Of a DNA stretch of 64,000 bases, positions 514 through 22,106 are shown piece after piece (the stretch's first letter is position 1; each line of letters begins with the position of its first letter). Position numbers and translations under genes: made by a program. The stretch is from Cladocopium goreaui (taxonomy: Eukaryota; Sar; Dinophyceae; Suessiales; Symbiodiniaceae): the NCBI GenBank assembly GCA_947184155.2, contig CAMXCT020002066.1, forward strand, positions 51,001-115,000. The letters are read 5' to 3'. The notes beneath the pieces were generated by a model. It was not told the DNA's origin. It did no database searches and saw nothing but the letters and a program-made list of their open reading frames with translations.

Positions 514-516
514 TTA

Positions 517-2880: not shown

Positions 2881-2883
2881 CTG

Positions 2884-4663: not shown

Positions 4664-4923
4664 AAAAATGGAAAAATGGGGGTTTCAGGGCGTTTATGTT
4701 TGTATGTTGCTTGTTATGATTTTGTGTTGGGGTTCAATGTTTCATCCTTGGTTTTGATGATTTTTCAGGTGGGGTTTTGGGGGTAATTTTGATGCTAAAG
4801 TGATGTGTTAATGTTTGGATTGAATGGGGGTAGGATTTGTTTAGGCTGTTGGGGTTTTCTGTTTGTGTTTGGGTGGGTGATTACTTCATAATATATTTTA
4901 TTAAGATATTATGAATTAATCAT
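4664..4923. repeat. Left terminal inverted repeat
   Basis: About 260 bp, reverse-complementary to 24853-25110 with roughly nine in ten positions agreeing by eye. Differences cluster near 4750-4760 and 4825-4850. The inner end contains a perfect 10-bp hairpin (4885-4894 with 4906-4915). It ends five bases before the stop codon of the first gene. Confidence 0.9.
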
Positions 4924-5351: not shown

Positions 5352-5378
5352 TTTCTCTTACTATATATAGGTATTTTT

Positions 5379-5387
5379 TCTTTAAGT
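5379..5387 (-). promoter_or_regulatory. Class A promoter motif for 4929-5351
   Basis: ACTTAAAGA on the coding strand, followed by an A-run and TACCTATATATAGTAAGA directly before the start codon. Confidence 0.7.
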
Positions 5388-5407
5388 AATTTTGATGTCT
5401 TGTTCAT

Positions 5408-5887: not shown

Positions 5888-5914
5888 TTTCTCTTACTAT
5901 GTATAGGTATTTTT

Positions 5915-5927
5915 TCTTTAATTAAGT
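5915..5927 (-). promoter_or_regulatory. Class A promoter motif for 5408-5887 (variant)
   Basis: ACTTAATTAAAGA, the class A motif with a four-base TTAA duplication, followed by the same TACCTATACATAGTAAGA stretch. Confidence 0.6.
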
Positions 5928-5943
5928 AATTTTGTGGTCTCTT

Positions 5944-6348: not shown

Positions 6349-6380
6349 CTTATTTAGTCTTACTATATATAGGTATTTTT

Positions 6381-6389
6381 TCTTTAAGT
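6381..6389 (-). promoter_or_regulatory. Class A promoter motif for 5944-6348
   Basis: ACTTAAAGA, 33 bases upstream of the start codon, followed by TACCTATATATAGTAAGA. Confidence 0.7.
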
Positions 6390-6419
6390 ATTTTTTTTTA
6401 TTGTTGATAATTTTAAAAA

Positions 6420-6423
6420 TCTA
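6420..6423 (+). promoter_or_regulatory. TCTA promoter motif for the integrase
   Basis: TCTA in an AT-only context, 16 bases upstream of the ATG at 6436. Confidence 0.65.
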
Positions 6424-6435
6424 ATATTATAATAT

Positions 6436-7377
6436 ATGGCAAGGAGACTATCAAGAGATGACATCATAAGCAATGTCTATTATAATCTTGAAACGGGCTT
6501 CGGCTCAATCAATGAGACCCTCAAGAAAGCCAAGGAACAAGACCAGACCATCAACAGGGTGGATGTGGAAAACTTTATGAGGAAACAGCCCAACAAACAG
6601 ATTAGAAAATACAGGGGTTCAAACTCCTACACCGCACCCTTCGCAAGATTTGAATATCAGATTGACATAATGGATATGAAACCCCTTACCAAAGAACCAG
6701 AGACGAAAATTCCCATCAAGAACGACGAACCGAGATATGGGTTGGTGGTCATTGACATCTTCAGCAAGTTGGCAAACGTCGTCCCTATGAAAGAAAAATC
6801 CGGACCAATCACATTATCGGCGATGAAGGAGAGTTTCAACAAAATGGGTTTTCCAATGTCCGTTTATAGTGATAATGACCGTGCCTTCCAAGCAGGGGTA
6901 AAAGAGTTCTTTGAGAAAGAAGGCATCACTCACGTCGTCACCCTAACTCACGCCAATGTTGTGGAGCGTTTCATAAGAACAATGAAGAATATGATACACG
7001 ACAGGGTGAGGTTTAATCGCGGTAGTTGGACTGTTATGTTGTCCAAAGCGTTAGATAAATACAACGACACCGTCCATTCATCCACCAAAATGAAACCCAA
7101 GGATGCCCACGACGACAAGAACCATATGGACGTCAGGGTGAATTTGACAAGGAGGGAAAAGAACACTCGCAAATATCCAGAGGTCAAAGTGAATGATATG
7201 GTCAAGGTCTTTGAGAAGAAAAAAGACAACTACACCGAGAGGAAGGAGTATAACTCAAAATGGAGCAATCAATCCTACAAAATTGTCAAGATAGAATACG
7301 ATGATGTCGGAAACAGAACCTTCAAACTGGAAGGATTGAACAAACCGTATTTGAGGCACGAGATTTTGAAAGTATAA
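6436..7377 (+). CDS. rve-family (retroviral-type) integrase
   Basis: A 313-residue DDE integrase that would insert the element's DNA into the host genome, leaving the 6-bp duplication seen at its ends. Residues 1-60 form a helical DNA-binding start. The catalytic core runs from about 70 to 200: D77 in 'QIDIMD', the 'VVIDIFSK' strand at 105-111, D146 in 'YSDNDRAF', and E177 in 'VVERFIRTMKN', which gives the D-D-E triad. The D146-E177 distance is 31 residues, about three shorter than I expect for Polinton integrases. A basic SH3-like tail (230-313) follows. The frame is intact with all three acidic residues present. It lies directly after a TCTA motif and heads a plus-strand block of four genes. 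Confidence 0.93.
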   Translation: MARRLSRDDIISNVYYNLETGFGSINETLKKAKEQDQTINRVDVENFMRKQPNKQIRKYRGSNSYTAPFARFEYQIDIMDMKPLTKEPETKIPIKNDEPRYGLVVIDIFSKLANVVPMKEKSGPITLSAMKESFNKMGFPMSVYSDNDRAFQAGVKEFFEKEGITHVVTLTHANVVERFIRTMKNMIHDRVRFNRGSWTVMLSKALDKYNDTVHSSTKMKPKDAHDDKNHMDVRVNLTRREKNTRKYPEVKVNDMVKVFEKKKDNYTERKEYNSKWSNQSYKIVKIEYDDVGNRTFKLEGLNKPYLRHEILKV

Positions 7378-7384
7378 AAAATTA

Positions 7385-7388
7385 TCTA
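7385..7388 (+). promoter_or_regulatory. TCTA promoter motif for 7401-7775
   Basis: TCTA followed by TAATATTAATAT, 16 bases upstream of the ATG. Confidence 0.65.
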
Positions 7389-7400
7389 TAATATTAATAT

Positions 7401-7775
7401 ATGACAGAGGTAGTCGTAAAAGAGATTGATAATGAAGAACCCAAGGAAGAAACAATACCAGAACCAATACAGGAAGAAGCACGGCAAAGCCCTGCTTCCT
7501 ATCGGGAAGCACCGAAAGAAGAGGAGAAACCAGAAGAAACAATTGAACCACCCGTTGAAAAGAAACCGCAACCAGCGCCAAAGCCCAAAAGGGTAAGACC
7601 GTCAAGGGCGAAACCACCTTTTGACCCAGAAGCATTCAAAAACGACCTTGTAAAACAAATAAAGGAAGAACTACAAAGTGCGATGTCCGCCAGAGACACC
7701 TACAACAAAGCCAAAGAGGAAAAGAACAAAGCGACGAGAGAGAAATTGAAATCTTTAGCATCAAAAATTTTATAA
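7401..7775 (+). CDS. Pro/Glu/Lys-rich disordered protein
   Basis: A 124-residue protein of low-complexity composition. Residues 1-60 are Glu/Pro-rich and acidic, 54-75 are Pro/Lys/Arg-rich (PKPKRVRPSRAKPP, nuclear-signal-like), and 75-124 form a charged helix ending in KSLASKIL. I recognise no family. Its start has a TCTA motif and it lies 23 bp after the integrase stop. A structural or DNA-condensing accessory role is possible from its charge but not shown. Confidence 0.6.
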   Translation: MTEVVVKEIDNEEPKEETIPEPIQEEARQSPASYREAPKEEEKPEETIEPPVEKKPQPAPKPKRVRPSRAKPPFDPEAFKNDLVKQIKEELQSAMSARDTYNKAKEEKNKATREKLKSLASKIL

Positions 7776-7791
7776 AGTATTATATATAAAA

Positions 7792-8241
7792 ATGAACATC
7801 AAGGAACAGAAAACGGAACTCAACAAAACTGACATCTACGAAAACGTCCGCAAGGACATCAACAGAAGACAAACCGTCCATTCAAACAAAAGTGCCAATT
7901 ACCGGAGCGGAACGCCCGAAATGCCAGACAGAAGAAAAAACGTGTATAGTAGTTATGACCACTACTACCACAACGACAGCAACACGGCAAGGATGCCAAC
8001 TCACAACCATCATCTTTACCTGAAGCGTCTTCTTGAATATCACAACACCGAGCACGATTACAAGGTCTTACAAGTAAAGCGGAGGATGAAGGAAGAGAAT
8101 GAGATGCTACAGAACGAAATGACAAGGTTGAGGGAGGTGAGGAAAAATCACAGATTGGAAGATTACGGGGCGAACGTCCAGAATATGAAACAGAGAATTG
8201 ATGAGTATAAACAGTGGTTGAGAGGCGATACACAAGATTAA
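7792..8241 (+). CDS. Coiled-coil protein of unknown function
   Basis: A 149-residue hydrophilic protein. Residues 1-75 are polar with many Asn, Tyr and His, and 80-145 form a continuous charged helix (KRRMKEENEMLQNEMTRLRE) typical of a coiled coil. It has no recognised family and no membrane segment. The gene starts 16 bp after the previous stop. Its upstream region has TATAAAGTATTATATATA in place of a TCTA, so it may be co-transcribed or use a variant site. Confidence 0.6.
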   Translation: MNIKEQKTELNKTDIYENVRKDINRRQTVHSNKSANYRSGTPEMPDRRKNVYSSYDHYYHNDSNTARMPTHNHHLYLKRLLEYHNTEHDYKVLQVKRRMKEENEMLQNEMTRLREVRKNHRLEDYGANVQNMKQRIDEYKQWLRGDTQD

Positions 8242-8249
8242 TATAAAAA

Positions 8250-8253
8250 TCTA
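8250..8253 (+). promoter_or_regulatory. TCTA promoter motif for 8272-9567
   Basis: AAAAATCTAAAGTATTAATA, 22 bases upstream of the ATG; one of the clearest versions. Confidence 0.7.
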
Positions 8254-8271
8254 AAGTATTAATATATAGCA

Positions 8272-9567
8272 ATGACAGCAGAAGTAATCAACGCAAAACA
8301 GGGATTGACACGAATACCCACTTACGCAGAACTCATCAAGGAAATAGACAGGGAAAAGTTCAAAACCAATGACATCAGAAAAATCTTTGATAGGAACGCT
8401 TGGTATTTTCACGAAAGTCCGCAGGGTCAAGCACTGAACACAAACAACATCCACCCAGCAGACTTACAGCAAATGAACTTCAAAAAGATGGCAGAGGAAG
8501 CGACCGCGAGGAAGGAAGAAGAAACACCCAACCTTGACTTTGAAGATATGACCGACTTGAGGGACGACGCCATCAGCGACTTTGAGATGTCCTTTGACAG
8601 AGAGGCAGAGTTGAGGGAAGAGAACGAAAGGAGAGTAGCAGAACAGGCAAACTTAAGTCATTCACAAGACCACTATATGGCAAACAAAGGAACATACGAC
8701 GCCGTTGGAGCAACAGCATCGGCAGGGATACAAGAAGACGAAGAACCGCCTTCAAGCAGTAGAAGCATCTTAAAGAACTTCCTTAAATCATCCAAACCAG
8801 TCATCAAAGCAGTCGCCACAGCAGGAGGAACAGCAAAGGGAGGGTCAATAGGAGGACTAATAGCATCAAAACTGACAGACGCCATCATACCCGACGAAGA
8901 GGAGGAAGAGAAACCGTCCAAGATAAAACCAACACAAAAACTAATCAACAAACAAGTCAAAAAGGTAAATCACCAAAAGAAGTTAAAGGAGGAAAAATCA
9001 AAAATGAACGTAGATGTAGTGCCCGACACCGCAGAAGCAATGGACACAACAGCAATACCAACAGCAGAAAAGAGGAAACCCTTAAGCGTGAGACAGTCCA
9101 AAGCAAAGAGACAGAAACCAAAACCGCCAACGCAGGAGAAGAGAGAATTTCAGGAAGACCCATCCACAACCACCAAACCGCCCAAAGCAAGAAGAGTAAG
9201 AGGAAAGCAACCCCAACCACAAGCATTAGGAGCAACAATCAACATCCCCAAAGACAACAAGACACCCAATGTAGATGAAGCAGAAACAGCACAGGAAGAA
9301 ACAGGGGCGTCATCTTCATCAAAAGCACCAGTCAGGAAACCAACAATGAACAAGGCAATATCACCAAGCAAGGTAGGAATACAAGTGATAAGAGAGAAGT
9401 TTGAAGAGATGAACAACAGCAAAAGCATAGACACAGGAGACTATCAAAGGTTTCAAGAGGTATATGGTAAATGGAAATCAAGCAAGGGAGAGGAAAAGAA
9501 ACAACATCTAAAGGAAGCGAAGGAACTTTACAAGTCAATCATCTATCCAAAATTAAAATCAAAATAA
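8272..9567 (+). CDS. Large basic virion-type protein with a glycine/alanine hydrophobic segment
   Basis: A 431-residue protein, mostly disordered. Residues 1-160 are acidic and helical. Residues 165-205 (ILKNFLKSSKPVIKAVATAG, then GGSIGGLIASKL) form an amphipathic helix followed by a Gly/Ala stretch. Residues 210-350 are strongly Lys/Pro-rich and basic, and 370-431 are helical again. In adenoviruses and related elements, minor capsid and core proteins combine membrane-active amphipathic segments with basic DNA-binding tails, so a comparable role is plausible. This is inference from composition and from its place next to the capsid gene, as no homologue is recognised. Confidence 0.6.
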   Translation: MTAEVINAKQGLTRIPTYAELIKEIDREKFKTNDIRKIFDRNAWYFHESPQGQALNTNNIHPADLQQMNFKKMAEEATARKEEETPNLDFEDMTDLRDDAISDFEMSFDREAELREENERRVAEQANLSHSQDHYMANKGTYDAVGATASAGIQEDEEPPSSSRSILKNFLKSSKPVIKAVATAGGTAKGGSIGGLIASKLTDAIIPDEEEEEKPSKIKPTQKLINKQVKKVNHQKKLKEEKSKMNVDVVPDTAEAMDTTAIPTAEKRKPLSVRQSKAKRQKPKPPTQEKREFQEDPSTTTKPPKARRVRGKQPQPQALGATINIPKDNKTPNVDEAETAQEETGASSSSKAPVRKPTMNKAISPSKVGIQVIREKFEEMNNSKSIDTGDYQRFQEVYGKWKSSKGEEKKQHLKEAKELYKSIIYPKLKSK

Positions 9568-9602
9568 TTAATAAAATTATTCATTATAATTTTATTAATT
9601 AT
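9564..9602. terminator. Convergent-gene hairpin, 17-bp perfect stem
   Basis: Arms 9564-9580 and 9586-9602 pair perfectly around the loop TCATT. The hairpin overlaps the stop of 8272-9567 and lies 14 bp before the end of the capsid gene, so it can serve both directions. Confidence 0.7.
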
Positions 9603-9615
9603 CCCACTATCTTTT

Positions 9616-11016
9616 TTAGTCATAGAAAATGACAGATTGGGCTTTTATCTCCAAGATACATTCGTGTTCAATAACGATATACATTTTGTCAGGCATCAGT
9701 CCAGTATCAGTCCCGTTGTCTGTTGTATATAAGTCTGTTCCATATAGAGGCTTTACACGGACAACCATATTTGAATTGTTCTTCAAATTCAGTCCAGTGT
9801 AATTGGCACTGTTAAGTTTCTTTAGATTAGACCCTGCTAAAAAGGAATTCGTCCTATACATATGAGGTTTTATGGAAACGTGATTGTTTCGTGTTTCTTG
9901 TAGATGCTTGTAGTTGTCAGCAACCCCCATCGTTGGCATTTCGGGTATGACGGTATTACCAATACTCAACTGAAAGGATAAATCAATATTTTCATAGTAT
10001 CTTTGAGCAATTGATGTTCCGCTTTCCCACGAAAGGGGATGATAAAGAAGATTATGAGGTTTCAACACTTCTTGGAAACCGCCCTTATAACCAAAATTTG
10101 AATAGAAAGATATGAAAATGTTGTCAGCCTTGCTTACATTTCTAACTATGGTCGTGAAGATGTCGGTGCTTCTACTTGTTGTTTGTGTTTGGACGGAAAC
10201 GCTGTTGAAGGTTATAGGTAAAGATTGCTTTTCCAAAATTTCAGCATACTCCGCAAATAAACCATCATCAAGTCGGTGAATATCACAGGTGATGATGGGT
10301 TGCTCTATGTTCCATAAGAACGAAGTATTCGTTGTGGTAAAATCACCACTTAAATTAACAAGGGGTTCATTAGCATCACTGACCAAAGTTAGTTCAATGA
10401 CAATCGGACAGTATGATAAAGGAATGAAGTTTGATACATTGAAGAAGGGACAAGAAGGTCGGTAATAAACGGTCTTTTTGTTTTTAAACCCTCCGAAATT
10501 GTCAGGTTTCGCTTGGTCAATGACATTCTGAACTGTGTTTGAAACTGGGTTCGTTGCCAACTGCGTATATGTCAAAAATCTATTTCCTTCATTGTAAAAG
10601 GTCTCGCCAAAACCAAGATTGTCAGTGTAGTTTCTTGAACCGTCATCTTGTAAAATATCCATCATTGCTTCGTATCTATTTAAGTCAGGAACTTCAGCAA
10701 TAACATTTGAACCCGCCATCACTCGCATTCGTTGAAAAAATGAGGATGGTTTATAGGCAGGTCTCAACTCTTTTGTTCCGTCATTGTCAGCATTGATGAG
10801 GGTAAAACCTATCAAAAGACTTCGTAGATTTATCCATTCATTCGCCCCACCCGTTAGGTTAAAGCGGATGACACTGTTTGAGTTGGATGAATAAGTAGAG
10901 ACCGAAGAAGGGTAAAATGTTTTGATACGCTTGTCTCTAATGTAGGACGCTCCACCTTTTAGTCTATACCGAAGGACATTTTCATTAAGAACATCTGTAA
11001 TTTCCAATGCTTCCAT
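9616..11016 (-). CDS. Major capsid protein (double jelly-roll type)
   Basis: A 466-residue protein that would form the hexon-like capsid lattice. The frame extends upstream to 11070, but the start at 11016 (MEALEITDV) is preferred because an AT-rich promoter with TCTATATAGA lies directly before it, inside the longer frame. The protein opens with 'RYRLKGGASYIRDKR', then 'SNSVIRFNLTGG' and a long beta-rich body with many Asn/Thr/Ser, the pattern expected of two jelly-roll domains. It ends in 'ECILEIKAQSVIFYD'. Identification rests on length, composition and position beside the minor capsid and ATPase genes. I cannot assign it to Polinton, PLV or virophage lineages by eye. The frame is intact. 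Confidence 0.78.
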   Translation of the reverse strand: MEALEITDVLNENVLRYRLKGGASYIRDKRIKTFYPSSVSTYSSNSNSVIRFNLTGGANEWINLRSLLIGFTLINADNDGTKELRPAYKPSSFFQRMRVMAGSNVIAEVPDLNRYEAMMDILQDDGSRNYTDNLGFGETFYNEGNRFLTYTQLATNPVSNTVQNVIDQAKPDNFGGFKNKKTVYYRPSCPFFNVSNFIPLSYCPIVIELTLVSDANEPLVNLSGDFTTTNTSFLWNIEQPIITCDIHRLDDGLFAEYAEILEKQSLPITFNSVSVQTQTTSRSTDIFTTIVRNVSKADNIFISFYSNFGYKGGFQEVLKPHNLLYHPLSWESGTSIAQRYYENIDLSFQLSIGNTVIPEMPTMGVADNYKHLQETRNNHVSIKPHMYRTNSFLAGSNLKKLNSANYTGLNLKNNSNMVVRVKPLYGTDLYTTDNGTDTGLMPDKMYIVIEHECILEIKAQSVIFYD

Positions 11017-11034
11017 ACTTGTATATATTCTATA

Positions 11035-11038
11035 TAGA
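11035..11038 (-). promoter_or_regulatory. TCTA promoter motif for the major capsid gene
   Basis: TCTA within the palindrome TTCTATATAGAA, 22 bases upstream of the chosen start codon. Confidence 0.65.
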
Positions 11039-11076
11039 AAATATTTTAAATAACCGATATATCTAATCAAATTAAA

Positions 11077-11298
11077 TTAAAAATAAAATTTCTTAAATGT
11101 ATTTTTGGTTTTCTTCCCTTTGTTTTGTGGTTTGTTTTCTATAGGTTTATTTTCGTTGTTCTTTATCTCTTTTCCGCTCTCTATGACCTTCTTGATTTCA
11201 TTGTATGTTAGGTGTTTTTTGTCCTTGGTATTCTCGTTCTTCAACTTCTTCATTTCCTGTCTGTTGTTCTTCAAATAGTCCCTTACGATGTCTTCCAT
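11077..11298 (-). CDS. Small lysine-rich protein
   Basis: A 73-residue protein that is about one third Lys and Asn (KKLKNENTKDKKHLTYNEIK, ending in TFKKFYF). Predicted to be helical or disordered and strongly basic, it could bind nucleic acid. It sits between the lipase-like and capsid genes on the same strand. TTTTATATAAG rather than TCTA precedes the start. No family is recognised. Confidence 0.5.
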   Translation of the reverse strand: MEDIVRDYLKNNRQEMKKLKNENTKDKKHLTYNEIKKVIESGKEIKNNENKPIENKPQNKGKKTKNTFKKFYF

Positions 11299-11347
11299 AT
11301 AATATGACTTATATAAAATAAAATCACATTATCTTGTTGATTGGTTA

Positions 11348-11381
11348 GGTTGAAAAATTATCACAGATAATTTTCTCAACC
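11348..11381. terminator. Hairpin over the stop codon of the lipase-like gene
   Basis: Arms 11348-11361 and 11367-11381 pair with one bulged base around CACAG. The stop of 11376-12089 lies inside the arm. Confidence 0.6.
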
Positions 11382-12089
11382 CAAGCGAAACATTATTGCT
11401 CTAATCGGTTCCGCAACATTCTTTTCTGACTTTCCCATATCTCCAAAATGGACGGCGTGAAAGCCGTGATTGTATAAAGGGTTATAACTGTTTTTATTGA
11501 CTGTTATATCCACGCCTTTGTCAAACATACTGACTGGGTCGCCTACTGCTCTGAACCTTGTGTTCTTACTGTCAGTGTTGTCATTGAAACTTACTGTTGG
11601 TGTTCCGTAGGTTCTGGTAGTAAATCTTTTGTTGTAGTCTTGGTTCAATTTCATTGTTGTTGCTGAACCCAAGGAATGACTGACGATTGTATCAACATTG
11701 TCAATGTTGTTTCTGATAAAATCGTTTGCGGTCTTATACCGCTTTGACCTATGAACCATATGAAAAGGTATGAGTGTGTCGTCCAAAATGTCTCTTGGAA
11801 AATCTTTCGTCCCCGCTATGTAAAGGGTTTTATTCTCTGGGTGGTGGTAAAGTCCTAAATCTGTTCTGTTGTTGTATGCCCTCTTTAGTCCTGTCTCGTC
11901 GTTGATGTTGCTGAACTCCTCCAAGTATTTGTTTCCCTGTTGTATCTCCTTACTGAATTTTTCCAACAATTCCTTCTGTTTGTTGTTGTGTTTCTTGTTG
12001 TATTCTTTACCGTCAATCTCTTTAAAGGGATTTATTCTTTGTAGTCGTCCCTGTGTTTTCATATCATCCATTAACCTTTTTTGAAGCAT
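11376..12089 (-). CDS. Lipase-like alpha/beta hydrolase
   Basis: A 237-residue protein. The first 75 residues are a charged helical region. After that comes an alpha/beta-hydrolase core resembling class 3 lipases: strand 'TLYIAGTKDF' (about 88-97), nucleophile elbow 'VSHSLGSA' with S139, acid candidate D184 in 'VGDPVSMF', and histidines H208, H211 and H214 near 'HGFHAVHFG'. The elbow is S-H-S-L-G rather than the usual G-H-S-L-G. A lipase in a virus-like element could help particles cross or leave membranes, which is inference. It diverges from the minor capsid gene across a 53-bp region with a TCTA motif for each direction. Confidence 0.7.
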   Translation of the reverse strand: MLQKRLMDDMKTQGRLQRINPFKEIDGKEYNKKHNNKQKELLEKFSKEIQQGNKYLEEFSNINDETGLKRAYNNRTDLGLYHHPENKTLYIAGTKDFPRDILDDTLIPFHMVHRSKRYKTANDFIRNNIDNVDTIVSHSLGSATTMKLNQDYNKRFTTRTYGTPTVSFNDNTDSKNTRFRAVGDPVSMFDKGVDITVNKNSYNPLYNHGFHAVHFGDMGKSEKNVAEPIRAIMFRLG

Positions 12090-12102
12090 ATATAATAATG
12101 TA

Positions 12103-12106
12103 TAGA
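12103..12106 (-). promoter_or_regulatory. TCTA promoter motif for the lipase-like gene
   Basis: TTTAATCTATACATTATTAT on the coding strand, about 17 bases upstream of the ATG. Confidence 0.6.
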
Positions 12107-12118
12107 TTAAACATATTT

Positions 12119-12122
12119 TCTA
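12119..12122 (+). promoter_or_regulatory. TCTA promoter motif for the minor capsid gene
   Basis: TATTTTCTAAAGTTATTATA, 24 bases upstream of the ATG at 12143. Confidence 0.65.
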
Positions 12123-12142
12123 AAGTTATTATATCATAAAAA

Positions 12143-12970
12143 ATGAGTAGATTTAAAAAGATATACATAGACAGCCATCACCGAACCCAGAACTCCAACA
12201 GTAGTAGTGATTTTGAAATCTACCTACCCGAAAGTCAAGAATGCGGGAACGACACCAAACTATACATCCACGAAATCACCATACCTAATTCCATTTATCC
12301 AGTTCAAGCGGGGTTAAACAGCAACCTATACTTAAGACTGACGGACTTTTCAAACACCACGGATGTTCTAATTGAACTGTTGAGTGCTTCCTATGTCGGT
12401 GCTACATTGGCATCAAACCTTCAAACAAAGATGAACGAAGCAACAAATGGGTTTCAAGCCAACAACGACTATTTCAGTGTGTCTTACGACTATGACACCA
12501 ACAAAATAACAATCGCTTTGAACTATGTAGATTTTTCGTTTAAGATAATGACCGACTATGAGATGGAATATAATACCATCCAATGGACGGGAGCATCTTA
12601 TGACAGAAATAACCTAAAATCCATCAATCAGGTTTTAGGAAATTACACCTCGTCGTTGAACTATCCAGATTGGAAAAGCGGATATTTGACATTATTGGCG
12701 TTGAGAAACTTATACCTTACTTGTAGTGAGTTGAGCGATGCTAAACAATTGGGTTCTACGGGTGCTTACAACATCATTAAGAAAATCCCCATGAACGCCC
12801 CTTTCGGTTCAGTCATCTATGACAACGAAATAATAAGCGTAGATTACATCAATGTTTCAAACAGAGTGTTGAGAACACTACACTTCAAATTAGTCAATAG
12901 TTATGGTAATGTGGTTGATTTGAACAATGTGAATTGTTCATTCTCCCTGACCTTCATTGAGGATGATTGA
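12143..12970 (+). CDS. Minor capsid (penton, single jelly-roll) protein
   Basis: A 275-residue protein expected to fill the fivefold vertices of the capsid. It begins 'FKKIYIDSHHRTQNSNSSSD' with 'FEIYLPES' following, the N-terminal signature of Polinton and virophage penton proteins (Y-I-D-S-x-x-R ... S-S-D-F). A 'LYIHEITIPNSIYPV' strand comes next and the C-terminus reads 'LHFKLVNSYGNVVDLNN' then 'SFSLTF'. The frame is intact. Its last 33 bases overlap the 3' end of the opposing methyltransferase gene. It is followed directly by that convergent gene, with no hairpin between. Confidence 0.8.
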   Translation: MSRFKKIYIDSHHRTQNSNSSSDFEIYLPESQECGNDTKLYIHEITIPNSIYPVQAGLNSNLYLRLTDFSNTTDVLIELLSASYVGATLASNLQTKMNEATNGFQANNDYFSVSYDYDTNKITIALNYVDFSFKIMTDYEMEYNTIQWTGASYDRNNLKSINQVLGNYTSSLNYPDWKSGYLTLLALRNLYLTCSELSDAKQLGSTGAYNIIKKIPMNAPFGSVIYDNEIISVDYINVSNRVLRTLHFKLVNSYGNVVDLNNVNCSFSLTFIEDD

Positions 12971-13574
12971 TGTAAAAATTTCATTGATTAACTCACTGGG
13001 TATTCTATATAATTCATCTTGACGATGGATTATAGGATTATCACCCCATTCACTCTTTTTACCCGACGGCATCCGTTGGGCTGTCTCTTTATGTTTGTTG
13101 TTGATGATGTTTCCACAGTCTTTTTTACATAGTGGTCTCGGTTTCCAAGTTTTAAGGTTCGTCCATATCCTTGTTCTTTTTCTGTATGGAAAGCCGTATT
13201 TACAATAATCAAGGTCAAAGTAATCAAAGTCTTTCATAAACTCCTGATGTTTCAATAAGCCAGTCTGTGGATTTTCTATGAACCATACCGAAGGGTTGAA
13301 GTAGTTGATTCTTTCAATGGTTTTCTTTACGATGCTGTTGGCATAATCTATTTTTCTAACACCAGTGGTTTTAGCAATGCTATATTCAATCAACACAAGG
13401 GGGAGAAGCCCAAATGATATTAAACTCATTTTGTTTGAAAACTTTGTAGTTCCAATTGAGGATGTCGGTATTGATGTTGGCATCCTTCAAGTCCAACGAG
13501 ACAACATCATAACCTAACTCTTTGGCGACTTTCCCTACACCGCCCGTTCCAGAAAACAGTTCAAGTAATTTCAT
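12938..13574 (-). pseudogene. C5-cytosine DNA methyltransferase, broken by one frameshift
   Basis: The gene encodes a small cytosine-C5 methyltransferase in two frames. Frame one (13574-13386) has motif I 'LELFSGTGGVGKVAKELG' and the catalytic 'ASPPC' (motif IV). It then stops after one extra base near 13392-13394. The second frame continues with 'EYSIAKTTGVRK', motif VI as 'ENPQTG', and a cysteine-containing C-terminal part ('PLCKKDCGN') to 12938. All motifs are present across the two frames, so the enzyme was complete until a single-base insertion, or this is a sequencing error. The length of about 210 residues suits viral methyltransferases. It would methylate the element's own or a competitor's DNA. 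The C-terminal codons overlap the penton gene. Confidence 0.82.
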
Positions 13575-13586
13575 ATTATAAATCTA

Positions 13587-13590
13587 TAGA
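13587..13590 (-). promoter_or_regulatory. TCTA promoter motif for the methyltransferase
   Basis: AAATCTATAGATTT palindrome, 13 bases upstream of the start codon at 13574. Confidence 0.55.
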
Positions 13591-13604
13591 TTTAAAATAT
13601 GAAA

Positions 13605-13970
13605 CTACGACAGCAACACATAGGAGTTGTTGGTTGGGTCTTTATTGATTTTGTAGTATGTTAAAGTCTCTTCTTTGGGTTGTGTGATTTTACCCGTTGT
13701 AATCCACTCAAAGTATTGTTTCCTTTTATCTTCCCACGAACCGACGGGTCTGCCTATCTGCTTCTTTTCAAAGGCTTTGTTTATTCTTTCTTTGTCTTTG
13801 TCGTTGGTATTTTCTTTGTTCTCTTCCTTCTTACCAGCATTCAGTTTCTCCTCTATGTTCCTAACAATACCGAGGACGGCATTAAGGTTCTTATTCATTT
13901 TGCTCACCTTGCTCTTCAGTTCTTCCAGTTCTGACTGTTTTACGGGGTCGTCGCTCTCAACATCCACCAT
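13605..13970 (-). CDS. Coiled-coil protein with a GRPVGS basic motif
   Basis: A 121-residue protein of unknown function. Residues 8-50 are a heptad-like helix (SELEELKSKVSKMNKNLNAV), 45-70 are very charged, and 72-85 read QIGRPVGSWEDKRKQ, where G-R-P resembles an AT-hook core. It ends in YYKINKDPTNNSYVLLS. It could oligomerise through the helix and touch DNA through the basic motif, but this is inference. TCTA elements (ATATCTAAATAAATA, twice) lie farther upstream than usual, about 40-60 bases. Confidence 0.6.
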   Translation of the reverse strand: MVDVESDDPVKQSELEELKSKVSKMNKNLNAVLGIVRNIEEKLNAGKKEENKENTNDKDKERINKAFEKKQIGRPVGSWEDKRKQYFEWITTGKITQPKEETLTYYKINKDPTNNSYVLLS

Positions 13971-14086
13971 ACTATTATATATTTATATATATTGTTATTT
14001 ATTTAGATATATATTTATTTAGATATTTATTTATCAATTTGCTTTCACGCAAAATCTACTCTTTACACCATTTTGGGAGAAACTTT

Positions 14087-14521
14087 TTAATCCATATCAT
14101 TCATTGACTTTCTACCGCTACTTCTTGGAGTGCTCATTACATCGCTTATCATTCTATTTCTGTTTGCTTCTTTGTCCTTGTCTTCTGGTGTAATCTGGCG
14201 GTTAAAACTAAAACTGATGCTATGGTCTTCGCTTTCTAAAACAATTTCGCCGTCATCATCCTTTTTGACATTCATTGTTTTATCATTCTTGCTGATTTTG
14301 AAACTACAGGGAGAACATTTACATTTAATACCCTTGGGGGTTATTTCAATTTCATTTCTCATCTGTAGTTTGCCCTTACACAAGGGGCATTCAAATACAA
14401 TGTCTTTAGATGTCAGTTTTTGTTCCTCGTTCAGATTGACAACAGCGGGTTCTTCATCTGAAAGTTCAAAGTCCTCGGGGATTGGTTGTTTTTTGATTGG
14501 GTTAGTTTTCTTTTTCGTCAT
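14087..14521 (-). CDS. Zinc-ribbon protein
   Basis: A 144-residue protein with one clear zinc site: C-P-L-C (about residues 50-53) paired with C-K-C-S-P-C (73-78), separated by a beta hairpin (ITPKGIKCK). This is a zinc ribbon of the kind used to contact nucleic acid or a polymerase. The N-terminal 45 residues are Lys/Pro then Glu-rich, and the tail is Ser/Arg-rich. Its start codon follows directly on the stop codon of the small gene 14522-14683 (TAG-ATG), so the two are probably co-transcribed. No specific family such as TFIIS can be assigned. Confidence 0.65.
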   Translation of the reverse strand: MTKKKTNPIKKQPIPEDFELSDEEPAVVNLNEEQKLTSKDIVFECPLCKGKLQMRNEIEITPKGIKCKCSPCSFKISKNDKTMNVKKDDDGEIVLESEDHSISFSFNRQITPEDKDKEANRNRMISDVMSTPRSSGRKSMNDMD

Positions 14522-14683
14522 CTATTTTATATTTGAGAAAAATAAAACAATTTCAATCAGTTCCAATGTGTGCCTACAGCATCTCTTCACCCTGTTGTCG
14601 GTGATGACTGGATATTTCGTGTCATCAACAACCCTATTTTCAATCTCTTCTAGTGTATCAATGTAGGTTTCATACTCGTTCAT
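14522..14683 (-). CDS. Small 53-residue protein (short gene)
   Basis: A short frame starting MNEYETYIDTLEEIE and ending in a hydrophobic tail 'IEIVLFFSNIK'. It has a TCTA motif 20 bases upstream, as good as that of any structural gene. Its stop abuts the ATG of the zinc-ribbon gene. The two cysteines in 'KRCCRHTL' are adjacent. No function is suggested. The promoter and the tight junction are the reasons for calling it real. Confidence 0.55.
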   Translation of the reverse strand: MNEYETYIDTLEEIENRVVDDTKYPVITDNRVKRCCRHTLELIEIVLFFSNIK

Positions 14684-14699
14684 CCTGATTATATATAAT

Positions 14700-14703
14700 T
14701 AGA
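14700..14703 (-). promoter_or_regulatory. TCTA promoter motif for 14522-14683
   Basis: TATTTTCTAATTATATATAA on the coding strand. Confidence 0.6.
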
Positions 14704-14791
14704 AAATATCATCAACATACATTCTAATTATACGATACAGGACTTTTCTTTTGCGACACGAAGATTTCTACTGGGGGTGGGTAGAACGAAA

Positions 14792-14902
14792 ATGTCGGGG
14801 GGTTCAATCAAAAAGATTTATCAAAAGAAAATGCACAAACGAATTCATCTTCTATTGCTTCGTTTTGTCAGTCAGAAGGACGCAGAGTTCAAAACTAATT
14901 AA
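14792..14902 (+). CDS. Possible 36-residue basic peptide
   Basis: A short frame beginning MSGGSIKKIYQKKMHKRIHL in the 340-bp gap before the ATPase. It is strongly basic, as are small core proteins of related viruses. A TCTA lies 25 bases upstream but in a GC-richer context than the other sites. Weakly supported. Confidence 0.25.
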   Translation: MSGGSIKKIYQKKMHKRIHLLLLRFVSQKDAEFKTN

Positions 14903-15007
14903 CGTCTTATGCGGACTGAAAAGCAACTGTCCCATTTTCACCCGACACCGACACCCTTTCAAGGTAAAAAAGGTTTCCTTTTCAATATCATATATCGGAA
15001 ATTTATT

Positions 15008-15011
15008 TCTA
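15008..15011 (+). promoter_or_regulatory. TCTA promoter motif for the packaging ATPase
   Basis: ATTTATTTCTAAATACTTTT, 16 bases upstream of the ATG at 15024. Confidence 0.65.
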
Positions 15012-15023
15012 AATACTTTTAAT

Positions 15024-15770
15024 ATGATAAATATAAAGCCTTACAAACACAAAGAATATAATTGTAAGCAGTCATCCTACGGGTATATGGCTTGTCTTCC
15101 AGCAAGGATTTTACTGAACGCTCCGTCGGGAACGGGTAAAACGGTTGCTTTGACAAACTTGGTCTTGGACATCTACAAGGGATGCTTTGAGAAAATCTAC
15201 ATTTTTTCACCAACCATCTTCATTGATGACAACTGGACGGTTGTGAAAAAATACATTGACAAAGAAATGGACATCAAACACACGGATGAAGACCCCATTT
15301 ACTTTGACACCTTTGAGGAGAAGGACTTGAAGAACGTGATAGACACGCAGGAAGGAATAATAAAGTATATGAAGGAGAAGGATTACAAACACCTATATAA
15401 CATCTGTATCATCATAGACGACTGGGCTGACAACGAAAAGGTGGTCAGGAAGAACAAGGAGTTAATCAAACTCTTCACCAAAGGTCGGCATTGGTATATC
15501 TCAATTTTTATCACATCGCAATCCTACACACAAATATCGCCAGTCGTTAGGAAGAATGCCACGCAACTGTTCATCTTCAGGCTTCGTAATCAAAAAGATT
15601 TAGATGCCATTTTGGAAGAATTGAGCGGGTTGTATGACAAGAAAACTTTAGACAAGATATACCGAGTTGCCACGAATGACAGGCACGGTGTTTTATACAT
15701 AGATTTGATGGAAAGCGACAAGAAGAAAATGTTTTACAAAAACCTCAATCAAAGAATTCAAGTGGAATAA
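15024..15770 (+). CDS. A32-like (FtsK/HerA) genome-packaging ATPase
   Basis: A 248-residue ATPase that would pump the genome into capsids. The frame is open back to 14751, but the start at 15024 (MINIKPYKHKEYN) follows a TCTA promoter and gives the usual length. Walker A is 'APSGTGKT' at residues 33-40 with K39. Walker B is 'ICIIIDDWAD' with D132-D133. The following 'GRHWYISIFITSQSYTQISP' strand with its S-Q pair is the sensor region typical of the A32 family ('T-x-Q'). The domain is complete and the frame intact. It heads a plus-strand group with the fibre genes. Confidence 0.9.
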   Translation: MINIKPYKHKEYNCKQSSYGYMACLPARILLNAPSGTGKTVALTNLVLDIYKGCFEKIYIFSPTIFIDDNWTVVKKYIDKEMDIKHTDEDPIYFDTFEEKDLKNVIDTQEGIIKYMKEKDYKHLYNICIIIDDWADNEKVVRKNKELIKLFTKGRHWYISIFITSQSYTQISPVVRKNATQLFIFRLRNQKDLDAILEELSGLYDKKTLDKIYRVATNDRHGVLYIDLMESDKKKMFYKNLNQRIQVE

Positions 15771-15794
15771 TAATGCTACAAAATTATTTTATCA

Positions 15795-15798
15795 TCTA
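15795..15798 (+). promoter_or_regulatory. TCTA promoter motif for the fibre gene
   Basis: TTATCATCTAATAATATAT, 13 bases upstream of the ATG at 15808. No equivalent site precedes 16613. Confidence 0.6.
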
Positions 15799-15807: not shown

Positions 15808-16632
15808 ATGGCAAATTATTATAATATAAATAGGAGCGTGGAGGCATACGAGTTTAGAACAATAGACCCAAATAACGGACAGTTAAGGAACATCCTTGAC
15901 ATCGCAGGAAGTGGTGGTGGAGGGGGTGGTAGTGTTGATTTATCCAATTACTATACAAAAGCGGAAACAAACAACCTATTCACCCCTTATTATGATAGTG
16001 GTGAAGTTGATGGTTTATTCACAAGTTATTATACAAAAGTTGAAACCGATGGTTTATTTACCCCTTACTACACAAAAGTTGAAACCGATGGTTTATTCAC
16101 CCCTTACTATACAAAAGTTGAAACCGATGGTTTATTCACCCCTTACTATACAAAAGTTGAAACCGATGGTTTATTCACCCCTTACTATACAAAAGTTGAA
16201 ACCGACGGTTTATTCACCCCTTACTATACAAAACTTGAAACCGACGGTTTATTAAACAATAAATTGAATGTCAGCAATCCCGAAATAACAGGCGTTTTGA
16301 AGAGTAATGACTTTGATAGTAAAAATAGTCTGTCTAACATACTGTTTAAACATAACAATGCTGTTTATTTAGAATATGATTATGATTACGATACTAACGG
16401 TGGTTTAGTTTTAGGAAAACCATTGGCTTTAGCATCAAGTTTAGATATACCATTGAATAGTAAATTACTTTTTCAACATACCGACAGTTATATAAATGAA
16501 ACTTTAAACGCTGGAAACTTTTTGAATTTTGTAATGAAAGAACAGACAGGTCAAATTGACTTTTATGTAGGCGACCCCGCTACTGCTTCTAATTTAGTTA
16601 TGACATTAGCAAATGATAATAACATTTCATAA
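15808..16632 (+). CDS. Fibre protein, N-terminal part with 13-residue repeats
   Basis: A 274-residue protein. After a short N-terminal anchor-like region (1-32) come a glycine hinge (GSGGGGGG, 34-41) and eight units of a 13-residue repeat, consensus YYTKVETDGLFTP (residues 48-151), five of them identical. A beta-rich stretch follows. 'YYTK-x-E-x-D' repeats are common in trimeric phage and algal-virus fibres next to S74 domains. The frame ends at 16632, overlapping the next frame, which continues with another glycine hinge. I infer that this and 16613-18133 were one fibre gene of roughly 775 residues. Near-identity of the repeat units at the DNA level suggests that copy number changes by slippage. 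Confidence 0.75.
   Translation: MANYYNINRSVEAYEFRTIDPNNGQLRNILDIAGSGGGGGGSVDLSNYYTKAETNNLFTPYYDSGEVDGLFTSYYTKVETDGLFTPYYTKVETDGLFTPYYTKVETDGLFTPYYTKVETDGLFTPYYTKVETDGLFTPYYTKLETDGLLNNKLNVSNPEITGVLKSNDFDSKNSLSNILFKHNNAVYLEYDYDYDTNGGLVLGKPLALASSLDIPLNSKLLFQHTDSYINETLNAGNFLNFVMKEQTGQIDFYVGDPATASNLVMTLANDNNIS
15949..16260 (+). repeat. Eight in-frame 39-bp tandem repeats in the fibre gene
   Basis: Units 3-7 are almost identical. Because 39 is divisible by 3, unit gain or loss would change fibre length without breaking the frame. Confidence 0.85.
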
Positions 16633-18133
16633 AACAACATCACCCGCTATTGGGGGTGGCGGTGTTGATGATACTAATTTAGTAAGATATACAGGTGAAA
16701 CATTACAGACAATAGAAGGCGATTTGGTCATAGGTGGTGGTTCTCAATTTTCTACTTATGACTTAACGGTTAATGGTGTTGCTTATTTGAACGCAACCAT
16801 AGAATTTCCATTAGGAGGTGCGATTAATTTAGGGACTGGTAAAGGTTATATCCGTTCTATCAATATAGGAAGTGGCACTGCCGCGTATGATTATTGTATT
16901 TTTGGTTCTGCTGGATTACATCGGTTTTATGTTGGAGGAAGTCCATTTCCTCAATATTTAAGATTTCAACTATCATACACACAGGCATATTTTAATGTAG
17001 ATGTCGTATGTCATACTGAATTACAAACCGATGTCATCAATACAAAAAATGCTGGTAATGTTGATTTAGTCTTTAAAAGGGGTGATGTTGAATATATGAA
17101 GTTTGAAGGAACGCTACAAGCAGTGGAACTAACAAAAGGTGCTAAATCAAACACCTATGATAGTATCGGTAATGCTGATGTCAGTTTTAGAAGGAACGCC
17201 ATAGATTTTATGTATTTCAGAAATGGTAATGTAGAAGTAAATGCAGGTATATCATTAGTTGCTGAAAGTGGTAAGTTTGATGTAATTTATAGTGCCACTC
17301 CTACTAATGTAGTATTTAAAAGGGGCGGTGTTAATTTCTTTACATTAGACGGCACTAAAAATATAATTGATGTTTCAACAGGTAGGGCTTTGTCGTCTCA
17401 ATATATTTATGGAGACTATTTTATCCATAGAAATGTTGGTGCTGATATGGTTTTTCAAGGTAGTAATACAACAGATGACGGTTCAGTAGAATATATGAGA
17501 TACAGAAAAGCAGATGAAGATGTTAATCTTTCAAAAGACATATATGTCAATCAAGACAAAAAGGCATATTTTCATAAAGAAACTGGTAAGAATAGTTATA
17601 TATTTAATGAACATACAGCAGGTGTTAATCATTTCAAGTTCATCAATGAAGACCCTAACGGGGACATAAGATTTTATGCTAATAGTAGCATAAGACTTTT
17701 TATTACTCCATCAAAAGTTTCTGTTCCAGCACCTTATACATTAGAAGGGGATTTAGTAGATACATCCGATTTTACTAAAAAATATGACATTAAAAGTATT
17801 GAGCATAATTTCACTGACATAGTTAAACAAATTGAACCTAAAACTTTCAAAATGAAGGAAGAAAAAGAAATAGGAATAACTAAAAACCATCTTGGATTTA
17901 TTGCTGATGATTTAATGAATGTAATACCTCCTGAATGGGAAGATATTGTTAGGGTTGATGATGAAGGTATTAAGAAGTTAAGTTATATAAAATTATCAGG
18001 TATATTGTGGGGAGTATGTAGAGAGCAACAAACAAAGATAGAGCATTTAGAAACCCGCTTATTTGAAGTTGAAAACTTCATCAAAGATTTTGTCAAACCT
18101 AAAGCAAAGGCGAAATCCAAATCAAAGAATTAA
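16613..18133 (+). CDS. Fibre protein, C-terminal part with S74 self-cleaving chaperone domain
   Basis: A 506-residue frame with no TCTA promoter of its own. It begins with a Gly hinge and 'VDDTNLVRYTGETLQTIEGD', then about 350 residues of repetitive beta structure ('VDLVFKRGDVEYMKFEG', 'VSFRRNAIDFMYFRN'). It ends in a Peptidase_S74 domain (residues about 384-485): 'TSDFTKKYDI' carries S385 and K390, the Ser-Lys spacing of that family, followed by 'LGFIADDL' and a C-terminal coiled coil 'KIEHLETRLFEVENFI'. S74 domains help fibres trimerise and are then cut off. The tail is Lys-rich. The protein would be the distal, receptor-facing part of the fibre. Confidence 0.75.
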   Translation: MIITFHKTTSPAIGGGGVDDTNLVRYTGETLQTIEGDLVIGGGSQFSTYDLTVNGVAYLNATIEFPLGGAINLGTGKGYIRSINIGSGTAAYDYCIFGSAGLHRFYVGGSPFPQYLRFQLSYTQAYFNVDVVCHTELQTDVINTKNAGNVDLVFKRGDVEYMKFEGTLQAVELTKGAKSNTYDSIGNADVSFRRNAIDFMYFRNGNVEVNAGISLVAESGKFDVIYSATPTNVVFKRGGVNFFTLDGTKNIIDVSTGRALSSQYIYGDYFIHRNVGADMVFQGSNTTDDGSVEYMRYRKADEDVNLSKDIYVNQDKKAYFHKETGKNSYIFNEHTAGVNHFKFINEDPNGDIRFYANSSIRLFITPSKVSVPAPYTLEGDLVDTSDFTKKYDIKSIEHNFTDIVKQIEPKTFKMKEEKEIGITKNHLGFIADDLMNVIPPEWEDIVRVDDEGIKKLSYIKLSGILWGVCREQQTKIEHLETRLFEVENFIKDFVKPKAKAKSKSKN

Positions 18134-18372: not shown

Positions 18373-18410
18373 CAATTGATAATATTATTGTTAAATAATA
18401 CTATTAATTG
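18373..18410. terminator. Convergent-gene hairpin between the 68-residue gene and the polymerase
   Basis: Arms 18373-18389 and 18394-18410 pair over 17 bp with two imperfect positions and a four-base loop. The polymerase stop lies inside the right arm. Confidence 0.6.
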
Positions 18411-21400
18411 GAAAGTGAGTAGTGCCCATAGGGGAGACTGTCAGTATCGTTGAACCAATACCTTTTATTGTCATAACTGGTCAGTCCAACTTTACTTTGA
18501 TTTATTGAGTAGATTTGGTGGTTCTTACTTCTGATGGCATTGAAATTTACATTCTTTGGTATGTGTTCGTGGAGTGTTGCTTCGTAGTCTTTCATATCTA
18601 AATCCCGTTTAACTTTCAGTTTTGGAACTCCTTTTGCTTTCTTTTCTGCTTTCTGTTCGTTGAATACTTTTAGACAATACATCTTCGGTCTCAACGCTAT
18701 GAAGTTTGTGATGATTTTTCCATCCATCTTGTCCTTGAATTTGCCAAGGACTTTTTTGTTAGTACCTTTGGATACTCTAAATCAACTTCAAGGATGTAGG
18801 CATTGTCGTCGTTCTCATTCCAGTCCATTATCATCTGTTCCGTCAGCATTTTCTTTATCCATTTGAGTTTTCCTATGGGTAGTTTCATTGACATTGCCAG
18901 TCCATAAAGGTTGTTGGCATCTAAATAGTTGATGTAGTTAGATGGTTTTGTTTCATCATATTCGTCTTTCATATACTTATTGTTTGCCTTTGCCTCCTTA
19001 TGACCCACTTGACACATTCCACCTCTCAAACCTCTCTCAATCATTTCATAAATCTCTTGGTCGGTAATCGGTTCTAACACCACTCCAGTTTTTAGAAGCA
19101 TAGCATCCCAAGCGAAGTTAGGAAGTGTAAAATAATGTGCGGGGTCTAAACCGTAGTATTCCAAACAAAGGTCTCTAAAATTTTCAAAGACATCAGTAAG
19201 CAATAAAACATCAGTTCTCAAATATAAGTCGTGATATTGACCAAGATTTCTTATACCGAAATGTTCCCATATCTTAAGTGCTCTTTCATACTCATCATCT
19301 TCAATATGACTTTCGGTGAGATTACTGTAAAACGCTTTCTTCGGTGGTAATTGTTTTTCTCTAAACTTGTCAAATGAAGTGAAGTAATCGTATGGATAGA
19401 CACCTTTGTCAGTGAGTAAGTCTAAATCATTGTCATTGCTTACATAGGGGTTTCTTTTGCTGAACTTGAAGTTGTTTTGCCAGTTTTCTTTCTTCTGTCC
19501 ATCTTCATACTTGCTCAACTTGACCAACTTGTCCAATGAGGACGATAAGAACGAAAAACTGTCTTTGAAACACATATTCTTGAATGCGAAGGTTATGAAC
19601 TTCTCACTGTTCTGTGCTATTACATCTATCTTGGCATTTTCAGATAGTTGATTGGCTCTTTCAATCACTAAATGACTGTCATAGTTCTTCAAGTTATGAA
19701 GGAAGACTGGAATTTTGTAATAACGCATTGAAAACTGTAAATTACAATCATCGTGGGCACATCCTCTATACTTACCTGTAAAGTGGCAATGGTCTCTACA
19801 CTTTTTGTCTCCTTCCTTGAAGTCCTCACCGCAAATGAAACATTTAGTGGCGGTCTTAAAGTCCCTCCAGTCTTCGTCCTTCATAATGATGTCCTTGTTT
19901 TCTTTCATCTTCTCCATTATCTTATCCTTTACTTCAATCATCTTTTTAACAAAGACATCCATACAATCCTCACCCCTATACAAGAACGGTTCATTTGAAC
20001 CATCAATTGAATTGACAACATTTATCATAAAACCACAGGGTCTATGATGTTGGTATTTGTCTGTCTTGATTGGTTTGGTGCTTACCGTTCCCGTTTTCGT
20101 GGTCAAACATTCAAAATCAGCATATATAACGAATGGTGCTTTTAGTTTCTTAAAGTGGTTTTTGAATTTGACGAAGAACTTGTCAGGCTTCTCTGGGTCA
20201 AACTTTGGCATCTCTATAGTTTGCCCTTCTACTGCCATACATCCCTTTTCCTTATGATTAGTCAAATCATCCTCTGAATGAAACACACCCGAACAGTGAT
20301 TACAAATGTATTTCTTTGCTTTCCGCTTACCAGCCTGTTGATACATCAACTTGTTAAAATCCTTTATATAAACATAGTGGTGATTGTCCCCATCAGTTAT
20401 TTTCAATAGGTCTATGTGGTGAGTTGCTTTGACAACTGTAGTCCTCTTATATAATAGGATTGATTGCTTACCATCTTCATCATCAATGTAATAGACATTG
20501 ATGGATATTTTACCTTCGTTGTTCTGTTCTAAAATGTCTATGTCAAGATTTGATGCTGGAAAATTGACATTATCCCAGTTGAGGTCATCCTTTAAATTTT
20601 TGTATCTGTAAATTCTGTTTGGATGGTCTTTCTCATAGACTTTACAAACACCGCACTGAATGGAATACATAAAACATTTGTCATCTGTATTTTGAATGTT
20701 GATACAGGCTCGTTTCAGTTTCAACCATTCAGGTAGTTCAATGTAAGAACCTCCACGAGTAGGATTGTATTTGTCATAGTTGAATTTAAGTTTATCAATA
20801 TGCTTCAACACCAATCCACTCTCCGACATCTCCATCTTGTCTAACTGAAACTCTATGTCAGTTGCCATTTGATTTAACTTTTGGGGTATTTCCTCTTCGT
20901 TGGTGATGTTGTATCTTCTACTTCTGATACTCTCCCTTATCTCTTCGTTGGTTTTCTTGCTCTTCATAGTGGCGGACACCTGTAAAATAACTTTCATTCC
21001 CTTATGTTTCCTCAAATACTCTTTCAATCTTAAATCTTGGTATTTGAGATACTGTAGTGCCTTGATGCCTCTAACCCTGACATTGGTGATGGCAAATGAA
21101 TTGACATAACCCTTGAAAGCAGATTGTTCGTTGGTGGTGGTTGCTTTGTATCTCATTTGGATGCCTGTGAGTGCTTTGTTTTTGTCAAGATTGACCCATC
21201 TAATGCCTCTCTTTTCTTTCAGTTCATACTTTTTGTAGTCCATTGTCTGTCTAATCTTGTTGAACTTGGTAATCAACCTTTTTGAAATGGGTTTTCCCCT
21301 TTCAAAATTGTAGGTCTTCTCTCCGATCTTGAGTTTCTTGAGTTCCTGTCCATTCCGTTTCAATATCTCACCCTGTTCGGATGATAAAAGGTAATCTAAA

Positions 21401-21582: not shown

Positions 21583-21609
21583 TTTCTCTATAATATATAA
21601 GGTAACATT

Positions 21610-21618
21610 TCTTTAAGT
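21610..21618 (-). promoter_or_regulatory. Class A promoter motif for the polymerase long form
   Basis: ACTTAAAGA, 28 bases upstream of the ATG at 21582, followed by TTATATATTATAGAGAAA. Confidence 0.7.
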
Positions 21619-21683
21619 AGTTTTTGGGTATGGGTTGCCTGTTGGAGTTTTTGGGTTTGGGGTTGGACTTCAACATAAAAACC

Positions 21684-22077: not shown

Positions 22078-22106
22078 ATCAAATCTTAATTATATAAGGC
22101 GACTAG

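Follow-up and report, generated by a model that had tools for sequence, protein, structure and literature searches.

A 64,000-nucleotide stretch of the genome of the dinoflagellate Cladocopium goreaui (contig CAMXCT020002066.1, positions 51,001 to 115,000; here called the window) contains an integrated virus-like element in which the tetramer TCTA lies a short distance ahead of many start codons. In the giant virus CroV, TCTA with AT-rich flanks is the late motif and lies just upstream of late genes (PMC5294985), and TCTA is also the motif of the type-4 endogenous mavirus-like elements (EMALEs), mavirus included, while EMALEs of other types are without it (PMC8547959). The two papers bear out a TCTA late promoter common to CroV and Mavirus, to which a sequence-only reading of the window had pointed. 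The locus raises the question of whether the element is, as that reading proposed, or descends from, a virophage activated by a CroV-like giant virus. Our answer is that it looks like a polinton-like virus (PLV) with two promoter classes that would be used at different times, a reading to which, the helper left aside, we assign a probability of about 0.6.

TCTA and a second box upstream of the element genes

We tested 19 element genes, 5 with an early-type box and 14 others, for a TCTA starting at -26 to -12 (distances run from the start of TCTA to the start codon, and flank composition was read from the sequence). ORFs (open reading frames) antisense to element genes and those in inserted DNA at 22.1-24.8 kb were excluded as genes by judgement; the short ORFs g11077 and g18165 lay outside the 19-gene list and were added in a count by transcription unit. 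TCTA was present in 11/14 non-early upstreams, including that of the second fibre gene (FIB2), and dinucleotide shuffles of these upstreams gave a mean of 1.6 and a maximum of 6, with 0/5000 reaching 11. Counting by transcription unit (13 non-early units, grouped by judgement, with g7792, g14087 and FIB2 assumed to be second genes of transcripts) placed TCTA at -24 to -13 in 10/13, against a shuffle mean of 1.2 and a maximum of 7, and 0/10,000 shuffles reached 10. When all 256 tetramers were counted, TCTA showed the largest excess among those present in at least 4 of the 14 upstreams. Its reverse complement, TAGA, occupied the same interval in 2/14 upstreams, and TCTA itself was found in 1/14 in each of two 15-base intervals farther upstream. 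Counted over the full 64 kb, TCTA is no commoner than expected (427 versus 450); therefore, the signal is positional.

An origin by chance in AT-rich sequence could draw on the upstream AT content, which runs from 63 to 93% across the 19 genes. It is rendered vanishingly unlikely by the shuffles, by the low TAGA count, by the 4/70 frequency of TCTA at other element ATGs with an upstream AT content of at least 72%, and by a TCTA excess that recurs in the relative C3821, described below. Ordinary host transcription might also be what reads TCTA, as an initiator or as part of the 5' leader and not as a viral late box, and the motif stands at a distance from the ATG compatible with a short 5' leader. 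We consider this improbable, since host ATGs on the plus strand with the same upstream AT content of at least 72% carry TCTA in only 10/103 cases and the element's own early genes in 0/5. We conclude that the motif is real and promoter-like.

All ten sites named by the sequence-only reading were present 13-24 bases before start codons (Table 1). Its description of their surroundings as AT-only did not hold, since the flanks are AT-rich, with G or C between TCTA and ATG in g8272, in the major capsid protein gene (MCP), in the gene starting at 14683 and in the penton-like gene. Five non-early genes were without TCTA in the interval: g7792, g11077, g13605, g14087 and g18165. The start of g7792 is 16 bases past the end of g7401, that of g14087 directly past g14522, and g13605 has TCTA only farther up, at -37 and -53. 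The TCTA of FIB2, at -25, is probably due to chance, since it lies inside the coding frame of the first fibre gene (FIB1).

A second box, without any TCTA (0/5), was observed ahead of g4929, g5408, g5944, PolB and g21772. In four of these it follows an exact pattern, TACTTAAAG, 8 bases and then CCTATATA or CCTTATATA, and in g5408 it is a variant; its end lies 11-17 bases ahead of the start codon. TACTTAAAG occurs five times in the 64 kb versus 0.53 expected, four times in these putative early promoters and once within the PolB frame, and it precedes none of the window's TCTA genes on their own strand. The genes concerned are PolB, a C2H2 zinc finger protein (g21772; Pfam, E=6.9e-06) and three small ORFs. 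Both kinds of box meet in the 87-bp gap at 6349-6435, with the early box of g5944 on the left and the TCTA of the integrase-like gene on the right, on opposite strands. The difference in TCTA between the two sets was significant by Fisher's exact test (p=0.0048 for 11/14 versus 0/5; p=0.0065 for 10/13, FIB2 omitted), and hand-calculated one-sided values that include g11077 and g18165 were about 0.012 (11/16) or, FIB2 omitted, about 0.016 (10/15). The early-box pattern also matched at least 120 stretches in IMG/VR, with one match per stretch in the 80 of these that were listed, and such matches are probably due to chance.

Within the window the two sets do not overlap, and the relative C3821 has both. 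Thus, the upstream sequences make it very probable that the element genes fall into two promoter classes, and the two classes would probably correspond to early and late timing.

Table 1. Boxes, genes, repeats and hairpins of the element, in window coordinates (TIR, terminal inverted repeat; distances are from the start of TCTA to the start codon)
Feature	Positions	Strand	Distance	Remarks
Left TIR	4664..4923			260 bp, 90.4% to 24853-25109
Hairpin	4878..4922	-		Past g4929, inner edge of left TIR
Early-type promoter, g4929	5352..5388	-		TACTTAAAG, 8 bases, CCTATATA; without TCTA
Early-type promoter variant, g5408	5888..5930	-		Insert in upstream box; TATA part CCTATACA; missed by exact patterns
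Early-type promoter, g5944	6349..6390	-		Exact pattern
Late box, integrase-like gene (start 6436)	6420..6423	+	-16	C3821, -32
Late box, g7401	7385..7388	+	-16	C3821, -22
Late box, g8272	8250..8253	+	-22	C3821, -21, out of alignment register
AT hairpin	9564..9602			17-bp arms; candidate termination signal where g8272 and MCP converge
MCP gene	9616..11016	-		466 aa; 39 homologues, 37 from ENA
Late box, MCP	11035..11038	-	-22	C3821, -22; C724, -24
Late box, lipase-like gene	12103..12106	-	-17	C3821, -17; none in C724
Late box, penton-like gene	12119..12122	+	-24	C3821, -21; C724, -22
Late box, methyltransferase-like gene (start 13574)	13587..13590	-	-16	None in C3821 or C724
Late box, g14522 (start 14683)	14700..14703	-	-20	C3821, -20
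Late box, packaging ATPase gene	15008..15011	+	-16	C3821, -17
Packaging ATPase gene	15024..15770	+		Pox_A32, E=1.9e-11
Late box, FIB1	15795..15798	+	-13	C3821, -16, out of alignment register
FIB2 gene	16613..18133	+		Peptidase_S74 chaperone domain
AT hairpin	18373..18410			Candidate termination signal separating fibre side from PolB side; without clear counterpart in relative
PolB gene	18697..21582	-		961-aa open frame
Early-type promoter, PolB	21583..21619	-		Exact pattern; retained in C3821
Early-type promoter, g21772	22078..22116	-		Exact pattern
Right TIR	24853..25109			Pairs with left TIR

The boxes in copies and relatives of the element

The capsid gene had at least 96 matches in the genome (1.17 Gb in 6202 contigs), most with 97-100% identity, and in some cases several matches are fragments of a single gene. 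A search with P0021, a capsid 45% identical to the query, gave 93 genome matches, all of them places of the same family. Thirty close copies were fetched with their flanks, and TCTA was unchanged in 26/30 at each of three genes (MCP, lipase-like and penton-like). These copies are uninformative on constraint because they are too similar. In four older copies, TCTA was kept in 23/25 readable late-class upstreams, both losses being at capsid genes (MCP, gone in two of the four), and TACTTAAAG was kept in 3/3 early upstreams.

In the relative C3821, many genes were 62-96% identical to those of the window by tblastn, with lower values for g14087 (50%), for FIB1 (40%) and for parts of the methyltransferase-like gene; g4929 and g21772 had no tblastn match there. 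Relative to window positions 9616-15770, the capsid-to-ATPase block is inverted (loci L152 and L151), and in most cases the box travelled with its gene. We observed TCTA at -26 to -12 in 8/13 of the non-early upstreams tested in C3821 (shuffle mean 1.8; 0/5000 reach 8) and at -34 to -12 in 9/13 (2.6 expected; 3/5000 reach 9). This list omits FIB2 and g11077; the latter, conserved in two relatives (88% and 71%), is also without TCTA on C3821. The absence of TCTA from g7792, g13605 and g14087 is likewise common to both elements, and the methyltransferase-like gene is without it in C3821. In the aligned upstreams, the bases of TCTA were identical at 37/40 positions versus 424/560 elsewhere. Four early upstreams, three on C3821 and one on C1002, carried TACTTAAAG in 4/4 cases and TCTA in 0/4.

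The nature of the element and the reader of TCTA

The element is lower in GC than most of its surroundings and has TIRs, an ATPase of the A32 type (PF04665 in 31/38 of its homologues) and a PolB, taken as a protein-primed type B DNA polymerase, among whose relatives some carry PF03175 (at 57-68% identity, in the best 120 of 8000 scored); the PolB ORF of the window itself has no PF03175 match at E<=0.1. The PolB copy is probably cut short, since many of the relatives listed are 1150-1320 aa long. Because of the TIRs, the A32-type ATPase and PolB, all polinton or PLV features, the element looks like a PLV, which is a better description than virophage. Of a retroviral-type integrase, another polinton and PLV feature, the sign was weak, with the integrase-like gene matching rve_3 only at E=0.072. 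The name MCP comes from a reading of the sequence, with no good Pfam model and no PDB chain matched by its profile at E<=1, and the names penton (also by position), lipase and methyltransferase come from such a reading too, without a family match. The methyltransferase-like frame is broken in the window copy (12938-13574), and FIB1 contains, at 15948-16292, 39-base tandem repeats that encode a 13-residue repeat.

Searches of IMG/VR with MCP, the ATPase and an alignment of each returned no relative, and phage records gave no match to the ATPase. Among prokaryote genomes, 584 pattern matches yielded one locus, L157 (positions 1-3123), a freshwater ATPase relative on a contig binned as Bacteroidetes and probably misbinned, which has an A32-like ATPase (48% identity) and, by eye, an integrase-like gene.

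The virophage interpretation had one part that stood, namely, that TCTA equals the motif of CroV and mavirus in sequence and position. If the whole element were expressed by a CroV-like helper, as in a true virophage, the five genes without TCTA, PolB among them, would be difficult to explain, since a review states that every Mavirus gene is preceded by the CroV late promoter (PMC6723459). These five genes carry a different box, and for that reason the designation virophage is not supported. The A32-type ATPase points the same way, as do the capsid profile without a PDB match and the absence of a recognised cysteine protease from the 20 ORFs scanned with Pfam (g11077 and g18165 were outside the scan). 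We therefore regard a true virophage as improbable.

What, then, would read TCTA? Early genes might be expressed from their TATA-like box by a TATA-recognising polymerase of host or helper, and their products would start DNA copying. Particle genes would follow from a CroV/ChlorV-like TCTA late promoter that needs a TCTA-recognising late factor, most likely supplied by a co-infecting giant virus of the CroV/ChlorV type. That a giant-virus late factor is the reader has, in our view, a little less than an even chance. If it were, particle making would be tied to the helper and DNA replication need not be. The resulting picture of a half-dependent virus, which starts DNA copying from its own early promoters and makes particles only with a CroV/ChlorV-type giant virus in the cell, is rather unlikely as a whole.

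A possible, if tentative, alternative is that the late factor comes from the element itself: one of the early products, for example the C2H2 protein g21772 or that of a small early ORF, would recruit host RNA polymerase to TCTA, and the likeness to CroV would reflect shared ancestry or convergence. Such an autonomous cascade would need a distinct set of early genes, which the five genes with PolB and the zinc finger protein would provide, and the many capsid-gene matches in the genome come without any CroV-like trace in the PF04947 and PF04451 searches. The silence of the genome in a profile search with PF04947 (VLTF3) adds nothing to this, since that profile matched in no control genome either and is uninformative. 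A further point against the alternative is that neither a known TCTA-reading transcription factor nor any transcription apparatus was recognised among the element ORFs.

A search with PF04451 (Capsid_NCLDV) found one match in the genome, a 187-aa frame at L162:3653-4216 on the minus strand, in a GC-rich island (57-68% GC) that adjoins a leucine-rich-repeat gene. In the PDB it matched capsids of large viruses (11 sequences), PBCV-1 being in the best four. The fragment shows past contact with a giant virus of some kind, and not with a CroV-like one.

Several observations weigh against two timed classes, with or without a helper. The PF04947 and PF04451 searches found no CroV-like virus in the genome. 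The integrase-like gene has a late box, although PolB does not. In the close copies, the TCTA columns were hardly less variable than their neighbours (0.036 versus 0.039-0.056 minority bases), and in C3821 strict conservation by alignment was weak, the whole TCTA standing in register in 7/10 cases versus 4.5 expected (P=0.09). The relative C724 had TCTA at 2/4 genes read, namely MCP and the penton-like gene and not the lipase- and methyltransferase-like genes, and at L157 TCTA preceded 1/3 genes by eye. Finally, the g5408 upstream of the older copy L158 has TCTA at -20 (1/3 early upstreams); therefore, the split between the classes is not clean everywhere.

Hairpins were observed at some gene ends (Table 1). 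In C3821, a 17-pair hairpin of different sequence lies between the ATPase gene and g8272, so that the hairpin at the convergent ends is retained in form and not in sequence. A long AT hairpin thus remains at the junction beside g8272 despite the inversion of the block, and this junction could be a recombination point. We calculated z-scores against single-base shuffles at 17 gene ends, those of the methyltransferase-like gene and PolB being outside the test. The results were uneven: z was about -3 or lower at only 4/17 ends, a value that 28/872 windows reach as well; two of these four ends share one hairpin and one lies inside a coding frame; strong hairpins also occur over promoters, at 13564 and 14684; and three other gene ends of C3821, that of the fibre gene included, have none (z of -0.2, 0.0 and 0.7).

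At the right end of the element, the 52 bases beside the TIR (24801-24852) are 85% like 5407-5458, the end of g5408, suggesting that both ends may originally have carried the small early genes. The GC-richer DNA at 22160-24800, which separates the last early gene from the right TIR, appears to have been inserted, whether from the host or from other mobile DNA. Farther out, endonuclease and reverse-transcriptase-like frames at 30960-33585, seen by eye, probably belong to a long interspersed nuclear element (LINE). The short ORF g18165 (18165-18371) is not conserved in C3821; it opens with MGNSNS, which resembles a myristoylation signal. Rfam at gathering thresholds gave no match, and a search for a spliced-leader relic, as a host test, gave two 3-mismatch matches, nothing above chance.

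Comparison with known systems

The element resembles the polintons and PLVs of dinoflagellates (Bellas 2023; OmPLV, Haro 2025) in its TIRs, MCP, A32 ATPase, PolB, a GC content lower than that of most of the surroundings, and many copies; Bellas 2023 describes dinoflagellate capsids that form a group of their own and counts 2,535 capsid genes in Polarella. OmPLV differs in having a helicase-PolB fusion and a tyrosine recombinase. In the titles and abstract beginnings of the open-licence papers listed, we found no work on promoters of dinoflagellate polintons, and the word promoter is absent from the main texts of Bellas 2023, Haro 2025 and the cryptophyte PLV paper.

The polyadenylation signals of mimivirus are hairpins at gene ends whose sequence is not conserved (PMC4402537), and the palindromic hairpins of the element are similar in both respects. 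Those of the element differ in being clear at some gene ends only, and they are candidates by sequence.

With CroV and ChlorV (Mimiviridae), the element shares TCTA, AT-rich flanks and a short fixed range ahead of the start codon; TCTA is the late motif of ChlorV too, and ChlorV is said to have it in common with CroV alone (PMC13196603). The early motif of these viruses, AAAAATTGA (PMC13196603), was not seen in the five early upstreams of the element. CroV encodes a transcription apparatus (PMC5294985), and the element differs in having none that was recognised.

With Mavirus and the type-4 EMALEs, of which it is reported that they alone responded to CroV (PMC10945749), the element has in common the TCTA promoter, integration in a protist genome and a PolB and integrase-like gene related to those of polintons. 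The virophage gene set comprises MCP, penton, ATPase and cysteine protease (PMC6428243), and the lack of a recognised protease in the scanned ORFs is one difference. The other lies in the promoters: the motif is reported to precede all Mavirus genes, and PolB and four further genes of the element have another box.

If our reading is right, a small virus that divides its genes between two promoter systems would stand midway between polintons that are autonomous and virophages that depend fully on a helper. A giant virus like CroV or ChlorV would then be expected to infect the host, and for related elements elsewhere among protists a simple rule would be at hand by which to sort genes according to timing and likely helper. 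Were the half-dependent version true, the many TCTA-bearing copies would be a record of a mimivirid infecting the host, and possibly an alarm or defence against it. From mavirus-type systems the element differs in having, alongside the TCTA class, a separate putative early class that includes PolB.

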